Shown here: positions 33,418 through 43,439 of the stretch, in pieces
Layout of the letters: each line of letters opens with the position of its first letter
How positions within the stretch are numbered: position 1 is the stretch's first letter
Assembly: GCA_902618945.1 (NCBI GenBank)
Contig: CACNCK010000006.1
Span: forward strand, 1 to 64,000
DNA length: 64,000 bases
Source: an uncultured SAR86 cluster bacterium
GTDB taxonomy: Bacteria; Pseudomonadota; Gammaproteobacteria; Magnimaribacterales; Magnimaribacteraceae
Reading direction: 5' to 3'
Notes under the pieces: generated by a model
The model's database searches: none
The model's input: only the letters and a program-made list of their open reading frames with translations
What the model was told of the DNA's origin: nothing
Position numbers and translations under genes: made by a program

Positions 33418-34029
33418 TTAACCATATTTAGAGCTTTTCTTACACTCCTCTATTAGATGAACCATTAGTGTTCTGAACCCCAACATTCTGTATTGTCTTT
33501 CAGGAAAAGCAAAATATTTGATAAAGGGATGATCGTCTTGAATTTTTAAGTTTAATACTTCCCATCCTAGTAGATTCTCATAAGCCTCCTCTATAGCCAA
33601 GAAAGATTTATAGACTCTACCCAAGTTAAGTTGGATAGCGTGGTCTCCATTGTCAAATTCAAATGCATTAATTATCTTGGCATGATTATTTTCAATATAT
33701 TTGCCATCAAAATTTAAGACCAAATCAACGTATTTCTCTTCCAAAGAAGTGAAATCAAAATCTGGGAACTTAGTTTTCACTTTATTGGTAGAGAGTTGTA
33801 CAAAAATTGAAGGTTCTGCTAAGCAGTCTGAGTCATCAACCATCACATACATTCTGTCCTCCCAAATCAAGTTACTTCTTACGCTTCCTGCATGAACTCC
33901 TTCAAGAGTGAATTCGCTGTTGGGAAACCAATGTGTCTCATCATGCAGAGAGTTATATTCAACTTCGCCAAAAATAAAATTGATATAGAAAAGCATAATT
34001 AAGATATGTATTGATCTATTCATTTTCAA
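33418..34029 (-). CDS. Secreted protein, unknown, paralogue of the 34544 gene
   Basis: 203 aa with an N-terminal signal sequence (MNRSIHILIMLFYINFIFG). No family recognised. The middle contains a C-x-AEPS-IFV-QLS pattern that also appears in the 173-aa protein at 34544 (C-x-AD-QPSFVMYS), both followed by an acidic stretch and a charged beta-rich segment, so I treat them as distant paralogues. Last gene in a five-gene leftward operon; overlaps the 34016 gene by 14 nt. Confidence 0.6.
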   Translation of the reverse strand: MKMNRSIHILIMLFYINFIFGEVEYNSLHDETHWFPNSEFTLEGVHAGSVRSNLIWEDRMYVMVDDSDCLAEPSIFVQLSTNKVKTKFPDFDFTSLEEKYVDLVLNFDGKYIENNHAKIINAFEFDNGDHAIQLNLGRVYKSFLAIEEAYENLLGWEVLNLKIQDDHPFIKYFAFPERQYRMLGFRTLMVHLIEECKKSSKYG

Positions 34030-34297
34030 AAGTTCCCAAATAAATCAATGCCCTTTTTTTGCAAGTTGGAAATACATTAGTAACCTGCCCTTTTGTTTGG
34101 TCTGATGGAACTGCTGAGCAACCTAAATCAACAAATAGACCGCGAAAAGGAAATTGCTTTTGTACCTCAGAATCATATCCTGCAGGAATTCCATAGCTTG
34201 GTTCTGCGATACCTTTTGAAAGGTTATCTCCATGCACCCAACATATATTTTTTCGCAGAGCATTGATCTCTCTTTTATGCTGCTCTTTAGTTTTCAT
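34016..34297 (-). CDS. Small soluble protein, unknown
   Basis: 93 aa, no signal peptide or membrane helix. Basic N-terminus (MKTKEQHKREINALRKNICWVHGDN) then a glycine/proline-rich part with several cysteines (VDLGCSAVPSD, FPTCKKRALIYLG). Family unrecognised. Fourth of five tightly packed genes in the island. Overlap with the following gene (14 nt) argues for real coding. Confidence 0.5.
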   Translation of the reverse strand: MKTKEQHKREINALRKNICWVHGDNLSKGIAEPSYGIPAGYDSEVQKQFPFRGLFVDLGCSAVPSDQTKGQVTNVFPTCKKRALIYLGTFENE

Positions 34298-34322: not shown

Positions 34323-34544
34323 TCAATAAAGAGAAAATTTTCCTATTACTTCTAAATCTTCTTCTGAATCCTCTTGATAGTCCTTAGCATTAGTCAAACT
34401 CAAAATATAAGTTCCTAAGGTCAAAGTTGAGGTGGAGAATAAAAATATGAATAACAGTTGAAAAGAATAGTCTCTATATGCAAAAGACAAAACAAGAAAA
34501 GATAACAAGCCTAGTAAATAGATAAAAAATCCTATTAATCTCAT
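34323..34544 (-). CDS. Small two-helix membrane protein, unknown
   Basis: 73 aa with two predicted membrane helices (about 5-21 and 27-50) and an acidic C-terminal tail (DYQEDSEEDLEVIG). Its start overlaps the stop of the upstream gene (TAATG), a sign of translational coupling. Unknown family; position inside the five-gene island operon suggests a membrane partner for the two secreted proteins. Confidence 0.5.
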   Translation of the reverse strand: MRLIGFFIYLLGLLSFLVLSFAYRDYSFQLLFIFLFSTSTLTLGTYILSLTNAKDYQEDSEEDLEVIGKFSLY

Positions 34545-35065
34545 TAGACTTTAGTCTCCTTTACGGTCTCTTCTTCATAAGGAACAAAAGATTCACAAAT
34601 CTTTGTTGCTTCCACAATTGCTTTATCTAGATGATCTAATACCCATTTATCTTTCCCATAAATAGAGTCTAATTCCATTACTCTTGCGCCTCTTAAGCTA
34701 GGAAAATTTCCTTTAAGTTCAAGCACTGATCTTTCCTTTAAAGCTAGATAAACTTTAAGATCTATCTCTTTTTTCTTTTTATGATTAACTCTTATATTTG
34801 CCTTTATTACAGAGTCCTCATCTGGCTCATCAAAATCCTCTGAATCAGGTGAATACATAACAAAACTGGGTTGATCTGCAAAACAATGAGGTCTTTTTAC
34901 ATGAAAAATAAAGCCATTATCAGACTGGGGATTCTCGGAATACTTCTTTACTAAAAGCATATGAGGTCCGGCATTTATAATCCGGAATGAGTCAATTGTT
35001 GTTATATCAATTTCAGAGAAAATACTAAGAGGAAAAAAGGCAAAGAAAAAAAGAAAAAATTTCAT
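34544..35065 (-). CDS. Secreted protein, unknown, paralogue of the 33418 gene
   Basis: 173 aa with signal peptide (MKFFLFFFAFFPLSIFSE). Contains FIFHVKRPHCFADQPSFVMYS followed by an acidic run and NIRVNHKKKKEIDLKVYL, the pattern shared with the 203-aa protein at 33418. No catalytic motif. Second gene of the operon whose first start codon is preceded by the candidate WYL operator. Confidence 0.55.
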   Translation of the reverse strand: MKFFLFFFAFFPLSIFSEIDITTIDSFRIINAGPHMLLVKKYSENPQSDNGFIFHVKRPHCFADQPSFVMYSPDSEDFDEPDEDSVIKANIRVNHKKKKEIDLKVYLALKERSVLELKGNFPSLRGARVMELDSIYGKDKWVLDHLDKAIVEATKICESFVPYEEETVKETKV

Positions 35066-35429: not shown

Positions 35430-35448
35430 CTGGAAATAGTAACTTATT

Positions 35449-35467
35449 TGACGTCATATCATGACGC
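35449..35467 (-). promoter_or_regulatory. Candidate WYL operator, copy 1
   Basis: Plus-strand TGACGTCATATCATGACGC, with the perfect inverted repeat CGTCAT-ATC-ATGACG at 35452-35466. It sits between the helicase stop and the start of the five-gene operon, 23 nt upstream of that start codon. Shares GCGTC-N5-ATGACGTCA (minus strand) with copy 2. Confidence 0.6.
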
Positions 35468-35468
35468 A

Positions 35469-38400
35469 CTAATGTACAGCGTAATCTACCAAGTCCATAT
35501 AAAAATTTACCAAGGACATTTCTTTTGAAGAATTTGCTATTGGTTGATTGAGGTTTGGAGAAGCTACCAGAATAGCTAAAGTTTGAGCTCGTGAAAGAGC
35601 TACGTTGAGACGGTTTCTCTCTAAAAGAAAATCTGCACCTCTTGGAGCACTTTCTAAATCACTTGCAGCCATAGAGATAAGAACAATAGGTGCTTCCCTG
35701 CCTTGGAACTTATCAACTGTTCCAACTTCAAATGATGACCCCATAGCCTCTTGGAGTAATCTTATTTGATGATTGTATGGAGAGACTATTAAAATATCTT
35801 TTGGAGTTATGAACGACTCATTGCCCTCTTCATCTGTTTTTTTACCTTTTAGAAGATTAACAACTAATTTTTCTATAGCCTCAACTTCTTCAGCACTAGA
35901 TTGCTCATTACCTTCATGATGAACAGGTAAGTAACAGATACCTGACTCCTTTTCTAAATTCGCTTTACTTATTTGTATCTTTCTAGAGTTTGCTACGTCT
36001 ACAGACTGTAATCTTCCGTCGTACACCCTAGATGATATGAAATTACATATATTTGAATTAAGTCTATAGGTATCAGGTAAGAGTAAGCCTTTATCTGCTG
36101 GAACAGTAGAAAATTCTCCTAGCAAGTAATCAAGGCAAGAAACCCCGGAGTCCTCGGGATGGACTCCTTGAGTTGGTTGAGATAACTGCATTTGATCTCC
36201 CATAAGAATAATATTTTTACAGCATTTACTCATTCCTACCATGTTTGCCAAAGATACTTGTCCAGCCTCATCTATAAGAAGATAATCCAGTTCGTTCTCC
36301 ATTTTGTCATTTGCAAATGTCCAAGCCACCCCGGCAACTATCTTAATTTCATCTGATAATTCGGCTTGACCAACATTTTTAAAAAGTTGAATCCTAGAAT
36401 TATCATAAAGTTCATCCTGCCCACTATCTATTCTAGCTATATCACCCGAGATGCCGTCCTCATCCATAACATTTATTACTTTTTCAAGAATATTATTTAT
36501 AGCTTTGTGGCTATTAGAGGCAATCCCAATCTTATAACCTTGATTGACTAAGGAAGATATAACTCTTGAGCCAACATAGGTTTTTCCTGTACCTGGTGGA
36601 CCTTGCATACATAAATACCCTCCATCCAAGGAAGAAGAGATCTCGATAGCTGCTTCCAAAGTATTACTGCCCCATTTTGATAAATTAATATCTCCCTCCT
36701 TTTTTAAGTTAGGTCGATCTTTGGACAAAAAATTATCTAAGCATTTATTTAATTTACCAGTCTTTAAATAGTTTTCTGCTATTTCTTGAATGCTTGTATC
36801 AATAGGTCTTGCAGGAACAATGTTGAGAGGAATCAAACTTAAATGATTGGGTAGCTCCTTAGTTGATTTAAGTTTTATATTGCCGTCATTAGAATTCATC
36901 TCATGCACGGTAACGTTTATGTTTGTGTCTTGCTTTACACGCACTGAATCACCTCGTTTGATCTTTGTTTCTTGGTTTGGATCAAATGAAAATGTATACG
37001 CTGAAGACTTGGTAGTGATTTCTTCAATTTCTCCAGTTGCGACTAGATCTCCCAGGCAATCTAGATCTTCAACAAGCTCTTCATCGGTTGACTCTAGTCG
37101 ATCAAAAAGTCGCCAGTAGGCAGGCTTATTTTCTCTTTTATGGTAAAGACATAGATTTGCCAAGATCCGAGCATGAGGCTTTTTATCTTTCTCTGATAAG
37201 CTGCTGACTAATTCATCTAAAAGATTTGATGCATCAATCCTCTCAACCTCTCGTTCTTTGCTTGCTCTAAATAAATAAGAAATACCTTCTTTTTCTTGAA
37301 TAACTCTCAACCAATCGGACAAAGAAATTAATGAAACACAATCATCTTTGTTGTAATTCCAAATCTCTTTCAAATATTCACTATCAGTATGATCTTTTGT
37401 ATCTCCCCTTTCTGCAGACCAGACTTCATAAACTACTGTTGAATCTTGACCACTACTTACTTCGTTATCCCTTTCCTCTCTAAACAAAGGCTCTATAGCT
37501 TTTAAACCATAGCCTTCCGCTCCTATGCACAAAGACTGTTTTACTACTCTATATAAATCCACGAACACTTCATTTCTCAAAAGATTGTCAACCTCTCTTT
37601 CGCGAGTCCCGAAATGACCCATGAGCTCCCTTATAGCTGTTATCTCAAATTGACCGTAATGATATACGTGCATTGCATTATCTTGTTCCCATCTTGCATA
37701 AGTCCAATCAATGAAGTCTTCAAAAGCAGTTTTCATTTCTTCTTCAGAATGAGCCCACCAACAGTCGAAACCTTCAGCGTTATCTTCATGTGCTGCACCC
37801 CATAAATAATGAAGAGGAATCTTAGTAAGCAAAGGATTACTTTCAATATCGAAATAAATATCTAATTCAGATTTAGGAGGCAGTGAGGATAAACCAAGCC
37901 CTATTTCTACATTTGAGAGTAAAGAATAAGGTATGCCTCCACTTTCTTTGGCTTGATTTTGCATAACTGCCTGCAACCTTAATCTGTCTAAAACTCTCTT
38001 ATCTAAATTGTGAACTTTGATATCGCTGGTAGCTAATTCTTTTAAAGTATTAATACCCGCTTCATTTAATTTAATAATTTGAGAATGTTTGATATTGGCT
38101 ACTTGAAATAAATGATCTCTTTCTTCAAGAGTTTTTTTCGCATGTTCACTAAAACGTCCCCAATTTCTATAAATATCAGGATCAGGAAGCTCACTAGTCA
38201 TGTTGGTGTTTTGGAAGACTAAGAACTGTTTTCTGATTTCTTTATAAAAAACAAAATAATCTTTTACTTGAAAACGTTCCTTTTCTTTATTGCCATATAT
38301 AAGAACACAAGTGTCTGTCAAAGTGCCCTGGAGCTCCGATAACATCTCTGAATAGCAACACAATTGAATTAAAAATTTCGGTCTGGATTTATTAGCTAGT

Positions 38401-38795
38401 TTTGCATCCCAAATCTCATAAGCGTAATCACCAAAATCTGATTTGCCTTCAATTTTATGAAGGAAGTCTGCTCTTCCAAAAAAATTTTTATCTCCCAAAG
38501 CTGCTTGATAAATAAGTTCAACACCTTCTTTCATAGCTTCTTTGGTGGCATCAATCATATCCTGTTGATCGCCATCTAGAATGATTCGTGAAGACATTTC
38601 GGAGGAAAGATCATGAAATAAATCCATTTCATGCTGATCGCCTTTCTTGGAAGCAACTTGCATAAAAGGATCTTCTTGGTCTTCCTTTACAGCGTCTTTA
38701 TCAACCTCTCTTAGATACTTATAAATAAGTGATTCAAAAGGTGATTCAAAGAATCTCATTAGACTGGATGGTGAATGTCTCCTGATATCGCTCAT
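35469..38795 (-). CDS. TM0106-type RecB-like nuclease / RNase H-like exonuclease / superfamily 1 helicase
   Basis: 1108 aa in one chain. N-terminal RecB/Cas4-like nuclease with GRADFL (107-112), EIWDAKL (127-133) and QLCCYSEML; a helix-hairpin-helix-like region (IIKLNEAGINTLKELATSD, 240-258); a ribonuclease H-like exonuclease with FDIESN (315-320) and YNKDDC (481-486); and a Dna2/Upf1-like helicase with Walker A GPPGTGKT (732-739), LLIDEAGQ, GDQMQLSQP, GTVDKFQGREA and NVALSRAQ. Predicted DNA unwinding and degradation. Its ATG overlaps the stop of the WYL gene, so they form one operon. Confidence 0.88.
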   Translation of the reverse strand: MSDIRRHSPSSLMRFFESPFESLIYKYLREVDKDAVKEDQEDPFMQVASKKGDQHEMDLFHDLSSEMSSRIILDGDQQDMIDATKEAMKEGVELIYQAALGDKNFFGRADFLHKIEGKSDFGDYAYEIWDAKLANKSRPKFLIQLCCYSEMLSELQGTLTDTCVLIYGNKEKERFQVKDYFVFYKEIRKQFLVFQNTNMTSELPDPDIYRNWGRFSEHAKKTLEERDHLFQVANIKHSQIIKLNEAGINTLKELATSDIKVHNLDKRVLDRLRLQAVMQNQAKESGGIPYSLLSNVEIGLGLSSLPPKSELDIYFDIESNPLLTKIPLHYLWGAAHEDNAEGFDCWWAHSEEEMKTAFEDFIDWTYARWEQDNAMHVYHYGQFEITAIRELMGHFGTREREVDNLLRNEVFVDLYRVVKQSLCIGAEGYGLKAIEPLFREERDNEVSSGQDSTVVYEVWSAERGDTKDHTDSEYLKEIWNYNKDDCVSLISLSDWLRVIQEKEGISYLFRASKEREVERIDASNLLDELVSSLSEKDKKPHARILANLCLYHKRENKPAYWRLFDRLESTDEELVEDLDCLGDLVATGEIEEITTKSSAYTFSFDPNQETKIKRGDSVRVKQDTNINVTVHEMNSNDGNIKLKSTKELPNHLSLIPLNIVPARPIDTSIQEIAENYLKTGKLNKCLDNFLSKDRPNLKKEGDINLSKWGSNTLEAAIEISSSLDGGYLCMQGPPGTGKTYVGSRVISSLVNQGYKIGIASNSHKAINNILEKVINVMDEDGISGDIARIDSGQDELYDNSRIQLFKNVGQAELSDEIKIVAGVAWTFANDKMENELDYLLIDEAGQVSLANMVGMSKCCKNIILMGDQMQLSQPTQGVHPEDSGVSCLDYLLGEFSTVPADKGLLLPDTYRLNSNICNFISSRVYDGRLQSVDVANSRKIQISKANLEKESGICYLPVHHEGNEQSSAEEVEAIEKLVVNLLKGKKTDEEGNESFITPKDILIVSPYNHQIRLLQEAMGSSFEVGTVDKFQGREAPIVLISMAASDLESAPRGADFLLERNRLNVALSRAQTLAILVASPNLNQPIANSSKEMSLVNFYMDLVDYAVH

Positions 38796-39787
38796 TTATA
38801 TTTCTTATTCATAGATTTGATATTTTGAATCATTTCCTCTCTTAAAAAGTTCGGTCTTATGACTTCAACTTGACCTGCAAAACCAAGTAGCCACCATCTT
38901 AATTGAGCTGTATCACTTACTTTAGCTTTTACAAGCAATCTACCATCATCAAGAGGTGTAATTTCTTGATCTTTAGATAAAGAGCTTTCTGTTAAATGAA
39001 AGCCAGCAGATCTATCAAATTTAGCCTCAAGGTTTATAGATTGGTTGGAATAGAGGTATCCCAAATTATTATCTTTTATATATTTATCTACAGAGAATCC
39101 TTTAGGTTCATAGGAGGTATTGCCATTCCATTCGGCTTTGGTAAATCTGTGCAAAGGTAAAAATCTTGGATTATCCTTATCCTCATCCATAGAACAGATT
39201 AAATAATGAATCTGTCCCCTTAAAACTAAACCTAACGGATTAATAATTCTCTCTTTAGCCCTTTTCTCTGCTCTATTCGTATAAAGCACTGAAAGCTGTC
39301 TGTCCTTAAGAAGAGCATCGTAAATCTCAGCTTCAACTTGATCATTAATCTTAGGAGCTTCTAATCTTTGCCATTGATGCTCTACCCTAACACGCTCTCT
39401 CCAACGACTGATTTCATTTCTCTTTATTTTTTTCAAAATAGAATTAGCACGATCAAAGAAAACTTTAATTCTTTTAAAGCTCTTGCTGGGCATCAAAGGT
39501 TCTAAGTACTGTTCTGCCAAACTAAAAGTCAGCGCTTCAATCGGGTCCATAGAAGGTTGTAAACCAAAAGCGCTTTGATGCCAAGACCATCCAAAGGGTC
39601 TTTCTCTATCATCGCATACGATTGGCATAACAGACTCAAGAGACTCTAAGTCTCTTTGTATCATTCGAAGCGACACCGAGTATCCCAAGTCATTTAATTG
39701 AGCTTGGATTTCCAATGTACTGATCTTGCTAGGATGTCTTGGCAATATCTGAAGAAGTTGGAGCTGTCTAAGACTACTTTCAGGCAT
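38792..39787 (-). CDS. WYL-domain transcriptional regulator
   Basis: 331 aa. N-terminal winged helix-turn-helix (SSLRQLQLLQILPRHPSKISTLEIQAQLNDLGYSVSLRMIQRDLESL), a central WYL domain (about 150-230, with LVLRGQIHYLICS in place of the canonical WYL triad) and a C-terminal WCX-like domain (LRWWLLGFAGQVEVIRPNFLREEM). Relatives such as BrxR and CapW repress phage-defence operons and sense a nucleic-acid or nucleotide signal. Overlap of 4 nt with the nuclease/helicase gene and an operator-like palindrome 23 nt before its start suggest autoregulation. Confidence 0.88.
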   Translation of the reverse strand: MPESSLRQLQLLQILPRHPSKISTLEIQAQLNDLGYSVSLRMIQRDLESLESVMPIVCDDRERPFGWSWHQSAFGLQPSMDPIEALTFSLAEQYLEPLMPSKSFKRIKVFFDRANSILKKIKRNEISRWRERVRVEHQWQRLEAPKINDQVEAEIYDALLKDRQLSVLYTNRAEKRAKERIINPLGLVLRGQIHYLICSMDEDKDNPRFLPLHRFTKAEWNGNTSYEPKGFSVDKYIKDNNLGYLYSNQSINLEAKFDRSAGFHLTESSLSKDQEITPLDDGRLLVKAKVSDTAQLRWWLLGFAGQVEVIRPNFLREEMIQNIKSMNKKYK

Positions 39788-39806
39788 GAATGTATTTAAT
39801 TAATTG

Positions 39807-39827
39807 TGACGTCATTATAGGACGCTT
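39807..39827 (-). promoter_or_regulatory. Candidate WYL operator overlapping a -10 box, copy 2
   Basis: Plus strand TGACGTCAT-N5-GACGC. On the minus strand the motif contains TATAAT, a perfect -10 sequence for the WYL gene, so binding here would block transcription. Inverted repeat CGTCAT-TAT-AGGACG (one mismatch) starts 23 nt upstream of the WYL start codon. Confidence 0.6.
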
Positions 39828-40111: not shown

Positions 40112-40262
40112 AAATTACTCCTCCGACAAGAGGTAGTGCCAGCAGACGGTGCACTACATAGAAAAACATCTGCAATGTGAGCTTTCCTCCTTGAAGTGAT
40201 CGCATTGACAGCCTGGAAAGACGGGCATTCTTATGAGTCACCTCATGACGCCTTACAGGTTA
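40112..40262. ncRNA. Strongly structured intergenic element, candidate RNA or 5' leader
   Basis: GC-richer than its surroundings. Stems: GTAGTGC/GCACTAC (40133-40139 with 40151-40157); CAATGTGA/TCGCATTG (40173-40180 with 40200-40207, one G-U); and a nested stem AGCCTG/CAGGTT, GGC/GCC, TTATGAG/CTCATGA with loop TCAC (40210-40261). Strand is unclear: plus-strand it would be a leader for the ORF at 40273; minus-strand it ends in a hairpin followed by AATTTTT, like a terminator. No known RNA family recognised. Confidence 0.45.
40235..40252 (-). promoter_or_regulatory. Degenerate operator-like motif, copy 3
   Basis: Minus-strand GCGTCATGAGGTGACTCA resembles copy 1 (GCGTCATGATATGACGTCA) with one gap and two substitutions, in the same orientation. 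It overlaps the third stem of the structured element, so the similarity could also reflect RNA folding. Confidence 0.35.
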
Positions 40263-40272
40263 AAGTAAATCG

Positions 40273-40614
40273 ATGAACCAACTTACAAAAATTGAACAAA
40301 GGAGAAGTAAACTTAAAAATCTGCTTTACCATGTACTAGATTTTATTTTCTCTTTTGCTATTGGAGTAACAGGTCTAGTTGTCTTAGTAGCATATGTTTT
40401 AACTGGAATGCATGTTTACTTAAAGATTGCCTCCCTACTCTCATTGCTTGTAATTTTGATTTTTTTAACTACTACAATTATTTCTTTATTTAAGTTTGGC
40501 TTTGATACCCTGATTGTAGAAATGGAAGTAAAATTTTTAGATGTATCTCTTTATTCAACTTTTATTTTTATAACTTTTCTATTTCAATTCTTAGAACTAT
40601 TTTATTCTGTTTAA
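40273..40614 (+). CDS. Three-helix membrane protein, unknown
   Basis: 113 aa: basic N-terminus (KIEQRRSKLKN) then three or more hydrophobic helices (about 22-44, 52-75, 90-110). Unrecognised family. Begins 11 nt after the structured element and overlaps the convergent restriction enzyme gene by 4 nt. Membrane proteins of this size occur next to defence genes, but nothing here shows a function. Confidence 0.55.
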   Translation: MNQLTKIEQRRSKLKNLLYHVLDFIFSFAIGVTGLVVLVAYVLTGMHVYLKIASLLSLLVILIFLTTTIISLFKFGFDTLIVEMEVKFLDVSLYSTFIFITFLFQFLELFYSV

Positions 40615-41690
40615 TTCATTCTTATGTTGAGACTTAAATAAAGGATTACTTGCGTATCTTTCTCACCTTTATCATTTATTATTTCTTTCTCTACTACATG
40701 ATCTATTATTGTTGAAGTTTTTGATGACGGCGTATCAAAGGCTGTAACTTCAAATAAATAGTCTTCATAAGCAGAGCTAATTTCAGATGATCTATATAAA
40801 GCAATTTTATCGTCTCTAAAATCTAGAATACATTTACAAGGTAAAGTTCCATCCCATTCTATGCTAGGTGTAACGCCTGAATGATAAATCATTAAGAAAT
40901 CTTTAAACATCTCTTTTTCATCATCTATAAAACCGTTATTTGCAAATAAAAAGCTACTTTTTCTGCTGTTGCTTAAATAAGAATAATAAGTAAGTTGTCC
41001 AATTAGATTTGGTAAATCTTTGTTTATTTTCGTAAGAGTTTTTTTAAAGTTCTCTCCTTCTATACAACATTCCCAGGAAGTAGAGTTTTCTTCGACGTAT
41101 CTAACCGATCCCTCAACATCAGAACTTTCTTTTAATCCGCTTTGAGTTCTTCTTAATTTTTTGGGATTAGCCTTTAGGATATTGAAATCTCTAGTTGTAG
41201 TAATCTTGTAAGAAATAAGGGTTTGAGCAGAAGCGTTGACTAGAGTAGGCTTTCCACCTACTGAACTCTTTAAACTAACTCCTTCAAATAAATCTTCGTC
41301 TTTAAACTTAAATAATAGGTCTGCTTTCACACCTGCTGGAGCTTTTGAAGGTAAATCAATGGAATCACAAAATTCTATAATTTTGTCATCCTCAATTAAG
41401 AAAGCACTACTTCCATCCCTTACTAAGGAATAAAAGTCATGAAAAACCTCTTCTGCATCTTTTTTATTAAACCTTTTATCATTAACATAGAATGCTTCAT
41501 CATCTATATTTCTATATATTGTTTTATCTTTTTCTGAAGCTTTAATTTCGACTACCTCAGCATATTCTTCGGTGATCTTTCCCTCTTTATTCCCCAGGTT
41601 TATATGCCAATTTGATGAATATAGTAATTTTAAAAGGGCTAAAGATTCAGACCATTCTCCTTTGTTCTTTTTTGCTTTCCAGTCAATCAC
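40611..41690 (-). CDS. Type II restriction endonuclease, HpaII-like
   Basis: 359 aa, matching the ~358 aa of HpaII. N-terminal KKNKGEWSESLALLKLLY and the central GVKADLLFKFKDEDLFEGVSLKSSVGGKPTLVNAS fit the HpaII-family pattern, with a D...(S)xK nuclease core. Would cleave double-stranded DNA, probably at CCGG, judged partly from the partner methylase. It is the last gene of the R-M operon, 13 nt after the methylase. Specificity is inferred. Confidence 0.75.
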   Translation of the reverse strand: MIDWKAKKNKGEWSESLALLKLLYSSNWHINLGNKEGKITEEYAEVVEIKASEKDKTIYRNIDDEAFYVNDKRFNKKDAEEVFHDFYSLVRDGSSAFLIEDDKIIEFCDSIDLPSKAPAGVKADLLFKFKDEDLFEGVSLKSSVGGKPTLVNASAQTLISYKITTTRDFNILKANPKKLRRTQSGLKESSDVEGSVRYVEENSTSWECCIEGENFKKTLTKINKDLPNLIGQLTYYSYLSNSRKSSFLFANNGFIDDEKEMFKDFLMIYHSGVTPSIEWDGTLPCKCILDFRDDKIALYRSSEISSAYEDYLFEVTAFDTPSSKTSTIIDHVVEKEIINDKGEKDTQVILYLSLNIRMN

Positions 41691-41703
41691 AGAATATGGC
41701 TAA

Positions 41704-42657
41704 TCAAAAAAAATCGAGCTTTTTAGGATCGTAACTTTTTCCTTTGGGTTCTTCTCCGCTCTTCAAATAAAAAAGAATATTTTCTAAGGTTGCCTGAACA
41801 GCATTTACTGCCACGCTATTACCCAGTTGTTTCATAGCCGCTTGCTTGCCAACTGGAAATTTAAACGATTTTGGATAGCCCATCATTTCTCTTCCTTCTT
41901 CTACTGATAATACTCTGACCTCTCCATTCACTCTGTAAGAATCCCAATTCCTTCTATCGTCAATACCAGATCTTGCGCCACCTACTCTAAGTGTGAAACC
42001 TATCTCTCTATCACATTCTCCCTTTAGTATATCCGACATGGTTTTCTTGAGAGGTATGGGTTTTGGAAATAGAAATTTACTACTGCTTGTAGTTTCATCT
42101 CTAAACCCTACCATAAAAACTCTCGGTCTGTGCTGAGGAAGACCATAATCAGAAGCTTTAATTGTTTCGTACCTAAATGAATAACCTAATTGCTGCAAAG
42201 TTTGTCTGATTGTTAAAAAGGTTTTTTTATCGTCGTGATTTATGAGATGTCTTACATTCTCAAGAAAGAAGGCTTTAGGTCTCTTTGCCTGAATAATGCT
42301 AACAATCTCAAAAAACATATTTCCTCTATTTTCATGTGCTTCTTGAAATCCTTTTTTATATCCCGCTTGAGAAAAAGGTTGGCAAGGAAACCCAGCACAC
42401 AAAACATCATGGTCTGGTATAGAAGATATATCTTTATGAGTTATTTCTTGGATATCACCAACAAAATTATTTTTTTGTTTGAGCTTATTGAAGTTCGGAT
42501 CAATCTTAGAAAAATTGAAATCATAAGTTTTGCAAGCATCCTTATCTATCTCAGAAACAAATACGCATTCATTTGGATATTTCTTTCTTAGCTTGTGAAA
42601 AGCCATATGAAAACCTCCAATGCCTGCAAAAAGATCTATAAATTTAATTTTCTTCAC
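41704..42657 (-). CDS. DNA (cytosine-5-)-methyltransferase, CCGG-type
   Basis: 317 aa. Motif I FIDLFAGIGGFHMAF, motif IV with catalytic Cys in GFPCQPFSQAG, motif VI FLENVRHL, motif VIII QHRPRVFMVGF, and motifs IX-X with MKQLGNSVAVNAV. The recognition region before motif IX (IGFTLRVGGARSGIDDRRNW) resembles that of CCGG methylases. Protects host DNA from the adjacent endonuclease. Slightly shorter than M.HpaII. Confidence 0.9.
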   Translation of the reverse strand: MKKIKFIDLFAGIGGFHMAFHKLRKKYPNECVFVSEIDKDACKTYDFNFSKIDPNFNKLKQKNNFVGDIQEITHKDISSIPDHDVLCAGFPCQPFSQAGYKKGFQEAHENRGNMFFEIVSIIQAKRPKAFFLENVRHLINHDDKKTFLTIRQTLQQLGYSFRYETIKASDYGLPQHRPRVFMVGFRDETTSSSKFLFPKPIPLKKTMSDILKGECDREIGFTLRVGGARSGIDDRRNWDSYRVNGEVRVLSVEEGREMMGYPKSFKFPVGKQAAMKQLGNSVAVNAVQATLENILFYLKSGEEPKGKSYDPKKLDFF

Positions 42658-43361: not shown

Positions 43362-43439
43362 TGGTAGACACGAGTGGACTCGAACCACCGACCCCCACCA
43401 TGTCAAGGTGGTGCTCTAACCAGACTGAGCTACGTGTCT
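43362..43439 (-). tRNA. tRNA-Val (GAC)
   Basis: Full cloverleaf read on the minus strand. Acceptor AGACACG pairs with CGTGTCT, CCA is encoded, D-arm GCTCAGTCTGGTTAGAGC, anticodon stem CCACC/GGTGG with loop TTGACAT giving anticodon GAC, variable GGGTC, T-arm GGTGGTTCGAGTCCACT. It closely matches gammaproteobacterial valine GAC tRNAs. Its 3' end is the likely insertion point of the neighbouring island. Confidence 0.97.

Follow-up and report, generated by a model that had tools for sequence, protein, structure and literature searches.

A palindromic box before a WYL regulator gene and a second operon in SAR86 bacteria is a probable operator of a DriD-type activator

The stretch of DNA analysed here, the window, is 64,000 nucleotides (nt) from an uncultured SAR86 cluster bacterium (GenBank assembly GCA_902618945.1, contig CACNCK010000006.1) and contains a gene for a WYL-domain regulator of 331 amino acids (aa). 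On the minus strand the WYL gene is followed by a gene for a nuclease fused to a helicase and then by an operon that starts with the gene of a 119-aa protein (p119). A palindromic motif, GCGTC-N5-ATGACGTCA, is present before both the WYL gene and the p119 gene, and a degenerate copy precedes a divergent gene for a 113-aa protein, p113 (Table 1). The original prediction was that the WYL protein binds the first two sites and controls both operons, in the manner of the repressors BrxR and CapW. We consider it probable, at about 0.76, that the motif is the operator of the adjacent WYL protein and that this protein is a transcription activator of the DriD type.

Table 1. Genes and predicted regulatory features of the WYL locus, in window positions
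Feature	Position	Strand	Remarks
Box 1, operator (predicted), before WYL gene	39807..39825	-	GCGTCCTATAATGACGTCA; 17-nt core 39809-39825; conserved before SAR86 WYL homologues
Box 2, operator (predicted), before p119 gene	35449..35467	-	GCGTCATGATATGACGTCA; core 35451-35467; kept in loci L018, L019, L020, L021, L023, L034
Box 3 (degenerate), before divergent p113 gene	40235..40251	+	GAGTCACCTCATGACGC
WYL regulator, 331 aa	38792..39787	-	Winged helix-turn-helix (wHTH), three-helix bundle, WYL, WCX; PF13280, PF25583
TM0106-type RecB-like nuclease fused to DNA2-like superfamily 1 (SF1) helicase, 1108 aa	35469..38795	-	Cargo lying between boxes 1 and 2
p119, 119 aa	35070..35429	-	Function unassigned; first gene behind box 2
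173-aa protein	34544..35065	-	Signal-peptide-like start; second gene of box-2 operon
73-aa small membrane protein	34323..34544	-	Third gene of box-2 operon
93-aa protein	34016..34297	-	Fourth gene of box-2 operon
203-aa protein	33418..34029	-	Fifth gene of box-2 operon
p113, 113-aa small membrane protein	40273..40614	+	Behind box 3
Candidate -10 TACTAT, p119 gene	35436..35441	-	18 nt from box-2 centre, ends 6 nt before ATG; transcript presumably leaderless
Weak candidate -10 TTAAAT, WYL gene	39794..39799	-	18 nt from box-1 centre
TATAAT inside box 1	39814..39819	-	Seen in the sequence; alternative WYL -10 that would allow auto-repression; not general among boxes
Candidate -10 TAAAGT, p113 gene	40261..40266	+	18 nt from box-3 centre

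A scan of the window placed the motif on the minus strand before both genes, as had been claimed. The copy before p119 has the span originally given, and that before the WYL gene ends at 39825, the 39827 first reported being 2 nt too far. The claimed equal offset was also found. Counted from the final base of the right GACG arm, the A of the start codon is 23 nt away for both genes (39810 to 39787 for WYL, 35452 to 35429 for p119), with 19 nt between the end of the motif and the ATG. The TATAAT noticed in the WYL copy is present, and the second operon does have five genes when the 73-aa open reading frame is included. The third copy, 21 nt upstream of the p113 ATG, has 3 mismatches to this pattern but agrees with the palindrome at 11 of its 12 half-site positions. 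In the 1.37-Mb source assembly (30 contigs, ~82% complete) there are two exact matches to GCGTC-N5-ATGACGTCA and none with one mismatch, and matches with 2-3 mismatches are in no excess over a reversed control pattern. With two exact matches only, the motif is not common elsewhere in the genome.

Homologues of the WYL protein (E<=1e-40) were found in 29 of 203 SAR86-order genomes. Most of them, down to ~31% identity, have [A/G]CG[A/T]CA-N5-TG[A/T]CG[T/C] or a close variant upstream, the half-sites being GCGTCA in the clade of the window and [G/A]CGACA outside it. The motif is therefore conserved before orthologous WYL operons. In loci where another, small gene comes ahead of WYL, the box can be found before that gene and thus at a greater distance. 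A strict form of the box is present in 26 of the 29 WYL-positive genomes against 14 of the 174 WYL-negative ones (Fisher p = 1.5e-19); the WYL-negative assemblies are incomplete, and some of the strict-box matches in them look like chance.

In relatives of the window locus the box precedes both the WYL gene and the p119 gene, and the genes between them differ. The helicase-nuclease is between the boxes in the window and in loci L018, L019 and L021; there is no gene between WYL and p119 in L020 (WYL 78% and p119 69% identical) and L034 (77% and 63%); and L023 (55% and 47%) has HmaA, HmaB, HmaC and further genes in this place. At the p119 promoters the half-sites are 75-92% identical, compared with 30-47% for the 40 nt upstream. 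Counterparts of box 3 precede p113 homologues in L018, L021, L019 and L080, with proteins down to 38% identical. A second box, a few kb away from the WYL gene and beyond a different gene set, is present in several loci. In L062, of another SAR86 family, the operon behind it is convergent and has a 46% identical helicase-nuclease as its last gene, and in L024 a similar second box precedes a 125-aa gene, a possible p119 relative by a weak link (hhalign probability 48%, E 2e-4). Other WYL loci contain SspC/SspD-type (L036), Mza-type (L068) and DrmA-type (L073) genes, and an Hhe-like gene neighbours the WYL locus of L034. Because the box is so conserved and its strict form so linked to WYL-positive genomes, binding of both sites by the WYL protein is well supported. 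Judged from sequence, this protein very probably recognises both sites, since the box tracks WYL across SAR86 and precedes the WYL gene and a second operon in diverged loci, and since BrxR, too, has two boxes (PMC9122601). In this part the original prediction stands.

The surroundings of the box were analysed in 62 distinct strict boxes from SAR86 loci, related sequences among them, with a -10 matrix drawn from general knowledge of σ70 promoters. For 43 of the 62, a -10-like hexamer starts at a distance of 18 or 19 nt from the box centre on one side or both, on a background of ~2 per offset. There are 37 such hexamers at offset 19, 10 at 18, and 0-6 at others. After collapse at 60% identity the -10 is still at +19 in 20 of 39 boxes, with 0-5 at neighbouring offsets except +18. 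Where a box lies between divergent genes, there is often a -10 on either side of it. Since the -10 is 18 or 19 nt from its centre, the box occupies the -35 position and no separate -35 is left. The 23-nt spacing shared by the WYL and p119 genes may follow from a layout in which the box is succeeded by the -10 and the start codon coincides with the transcription start or adjoins it, on a near-leaderless mRNA.

To which known WYL protein is this regulator closest? In a PDB profile search with 17 homologues, DriD of Caulobacter was found with E 4e-15 (over WYL-WCX), PafBC with 7e-13 and CapW with 0.17-0.73; BrxR was absent at E<=1. The AlphaFold2 model of the protein (predicted local distance difference test, pLDDT, 82) has a wHTH, a three-helix bundle at 82-132, a WYL and a WCX domain. 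The layout of DriD is 1-70, 79-133, 134-245 and 246-327 (PMC12340889), and the predicted domain order and lengths of the WYL protein match it, with near-equal boundaries. Foldseek gave DriD 7e-16, PafBC 1e-11, BrxR 1.5e-6 and CapW 2e-6. The WYL protein thus resembles Caulobacter DriD most in its sequence profile, its predicted fold and the order of its domains.

DriD of Caulobacter crescentus is a WYL activator of an SOS-independent DNA damage response, triggered by single-stranded DNA (ssDNA), with didA, bapE, recJ and dnaG as described targets. Its consensus site is ATACGAC-N7-GTCGTAT, in which arginines contact guanines, and its sites lie over the -35 at a constant distance from the -10 (PMC12340889). 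The SAR86 box, [A/G]CGAC-N7-GTCG[T/C] or its CGTC variant, keeps the guanines that DriD contacts and has the same position over the -35 and fixed distance to the -10. In addition, there is a DNA-repair exonuclease among the targets in both cases, recJ for DriD and, as a predicted target, exonuclease I in SAR86. Unlike DriD, to which it is just ~18-21% identical, the SAR86 protein has its site also before its own gene and defence operons. PafBC, the mycobacterial ssDNA-triggered WYL activator, shares WYL/WCX homology and came second in the profile and fold searches. PafBC is a heterodimer with another promoter element and a mycobacterial DNA-damage regulon.

On these grounds a dimer of the WYL protein would bind [A/G]CG[A/T]C-N7-G[A/T]CG[T/C] at the place of the -35, with the -10 18-19 nt from the box centre, and would recruit RNA polymerase to promoters that have no -35 of their own. 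Three transcripts of the window would be switched on in this way: that of the WYL and helicase-nuclease genes, that of the five-gene p119 operon, and that of the divergent p113 membrane protein. The trigger may be, as with DriD and PafBC, ssDNA, here arising from phage attack or DNA damage, and the genes switched on may act in defence.

Several points weigh against an activator of the DriD type acting through these boxes. The half-site of the window clade is CGTC (CGTC-N7-GACG) where that of DriD is CGAC, although the guanines are kept, and no control of the DriD gene by DriD through a site of this kind is known (PMC12340889). The strict box is also present in the 14 genomes without this WYL gene. 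Of the -10 hexamers at +18 in the window, that of p119 (TACTAT) is fair and that of WYL (TTAAAT) weak. Because the WYL box contains TATAAT and its +18 -10 is weak, the WYL gene itself could be auto-repressed. A repressor, too, could act through boxes placed over the -35.

Is the WYL protein, then, a repressor similar to BrxR or CapW, which silences both operons through the palindromes and releases them on sensing infection? We consider this unlikely. A WYL regulator next to defence genes, with half-sites ~5 nt apart, does recall these proteins. Like BrxR, the repressor associated with bacteriophage exclusion (BREX) systems, it has palindromic sites before its own gene and a second operon, as in R-BOX1/2 of BrxR (PMC9122601), a trait of the BrxR family that is not specific to it. 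However, comparison of the WYL protein with pEFER BrxR detects no similarity (BLASTP E 0.76, hhalign probability 0.3%), and the protein falls outside the BrxR family, for which a BLASTP E < 1e-5 to pEFER BrxR is used (PMC9122601); in addition, the fold match is weaker and the site is in a different position. CapW, also of the WYL/WCX type, regulates a defence operon and has a palindromic site, and both CapW and BrxR are ssDNA-responsive (PMC13373217). CapW sites overlap the -10 (PMC9122588), and the TATAAT of the window WYL box would fit this. Boxes in general do not share the trait: an embedded -10 is not enriched (0 forward and 6 reverse of 43), so that occlusion of the -10 inside the box was rejected as a general mode. 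CapW is also linked to the cyclic-oligonucleotide-based anti-phage signalling system (CBASS), and it matches the profile very weakly. Both repressors are far below DriD and PafBC in the profile and fold searches. With the -10 18-19 nt downstream, no -35 would be left for an unaided polymerase. The repression by a BrxR/CapW-like mechanism that had been proposed is not supported, since the closest solved relative is the activator DriD and the box matches the DriD operator and sits over the -35.

Another regulator, either a second DriD-like protein or an unrelated factor, might bind the box, with the WYL gene merely one of its targets. Because 14 WYL-negative genomes carry the strict box, another regulator may at least share the site. 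Examples are G062, in which this kind of WYL gene was not detected and which has the box before exoI, and G028 and G029, with the box between lexA and the gene of a 5'-nucleotidase. That the WYL protein is not the one that binds is nevertheless quite improbable: the linkage of box and WYL gene is strong, the T/A variant of the half-site follows the WYL clade, the box matches the operator known for the closest relative, DriD, and the genomes that lack the WYL gene are incompletely assembled.

Highly improbable is the explanation that the box is the LexA (SOS) operator of SAR86 and its genes are ordinary SOS genes. Boxes do occur just upstream of lexA in several genomes, but SAR86 lexA and recA have canonical LexA boxes (TACTGTATATAATTACAGTA, TACTGTTTATTTATACAGTA) separate from the WYL-type box, which does not fit the LexA/SOS pattern CTGT-N8-ACAG, and the identity was rejected. 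Control of lexA by the boxes upstream of it was rejected as well, since the geometry of the -10 at +19 favours the divergent 5'-nucleotidase gene. In L081, L087, L090 and L093 the WYL-type box is found between the LexA box and lexA, and the -10 faces the divergent PF06189 5'-nucleotidase gene. Least probable of all is a chance resemblance between two short palindromes: the relaxed pattern (3 mismatches) is weakly enriched within the window, where 8 of 100 shuffles reach it, but the sole two exact genome copies both precede genes of one locus, and chance is excluded because the motif is conserved in diverged relatives with otherwise dissimilar flanks.

The window WYL protein is 95% identical to that of SAR86 bacterium AG-447-A08 and 78% to that of SAR86 AG-343-J11. 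The WYL homologue of L048 (genome G124) was reported with a single in-frame TAG, which may mark a decaying copy or read-through at the gene end. The contig of L019 (DKPS01000179.1), labelled Saprospiraceae, has the SAR86 locus at 91-94% identity and is probably mis-binned. Among the genomes searched p119 is confined to this SAR86 family; it has no match in Pfam, NCBIfam, PADLOC, PHROG or phage sequences, and its predicted structure is of low confidence (pLDDT 56). It is followed by genes of 75 aa in L023 and 73 aa in L034. The four proteins of the box-2 operon that were scanned, of 119, 173, 93 and 203 aa, have no family match. There are no CBASS genes in the window locus. A non-coding stretch before p113 (~40150-40235) is conserved, acatagaaaaacatctgcaat...attgacag..ggaaagacgg, and recurs, inverted, upstream of the WYL gene of L023; Rfam gave no credible match for the WYL-p113 intergenic region. 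An HpaII-like restriction endonuclease and a C5 methyltransferase adjoin the WYL locus at 40611-42657, and the corresponding side of L018 and L021 has other methyltransferases, distantly similar at best. Because differing methyltransferases occupy it, this flank resembles a swapping restriction-modification slot. A tRNA-Val (gac) gene near the edge of the defence region (43362-43439) is a possible integration site.

Two SAR86 families have boxes of this geometry before exonuclease I (PF08411/PF00929), and in a third the exonuclease I gene is divergent from WYL across the boxes. In L084, L085, L086, L098, L089 and L092 the exonuclease I gene has a box and a -10, often a perfect TATAAT, at +18/+19; the exonuclease I box of G062 has a -10 too. 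Outside SAR86, the same profile finds WYL homologues in 31 of the 368 other genomes of the class sample. Exact CGAC-N7-GTCG occurs within 300 nt upstream of 8 of the 29 wider-class homologues tested, compared with 33 of 5800 shuffles. On plasmids, ~35%-identical WYL genes are near Druantia-like (Marinobacter), PDC-M27 (Rhodoferax) and AbaSI-like restriction (Vibrio echinoideorum) genes, and the Marinobacter and Vibrio plasmids have boxes with a -10 at +19. On the Vibrio echinoideorum plasmid one box (L190 4835), with TATAAT at +19, is ahead of a WYL/TerB operon, and another (L190 8797) faces the operon of the AbaSI-like restriction gene.

What might such a regulator do in these bacteria? Tentatively, at slightly less than even odds, we propose that SAR86 defence hotspots are run by an SOS-independent DNA-damage switch, in which a DriD-type activator senses the ssDNA of infection and fires operators placed around exchangeable defence modules, with a regulon that in parts of the clade includes exonuclease I. 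Exonuclease I in that regulon would destroy the ssDNA signal and close the loop. In the literature searched, the coverage of which is incomplete, the WYL regulators of phage defence are repressors (BrxR, CapW), the activators DriD and PafBC belong to DNA repair, and DriD-type operators are not described for defence islands. Work on a WYL gene adjacent to ddmDE in Vibrio cholerae is said to be in progress (PMC12409362). In the loci analysed here, a protein and promoters of the DriD type appear around defence modules, namely Hma in one relative, the TM0106 helicase-nuclease in the window and Druantia-like genes on the Marinobacter plasmid, and also before exonuclease I. If the proposal is true, the repressor branch of WYL proteins in defence and the activator branch in repair would be joined, and ssDNA would be predicted to switch these systems on. 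The box with its -10 at +18/+19 would also be a searchable signature for the regulon and for unknown defence genes in these abundant uncultured bacteria.

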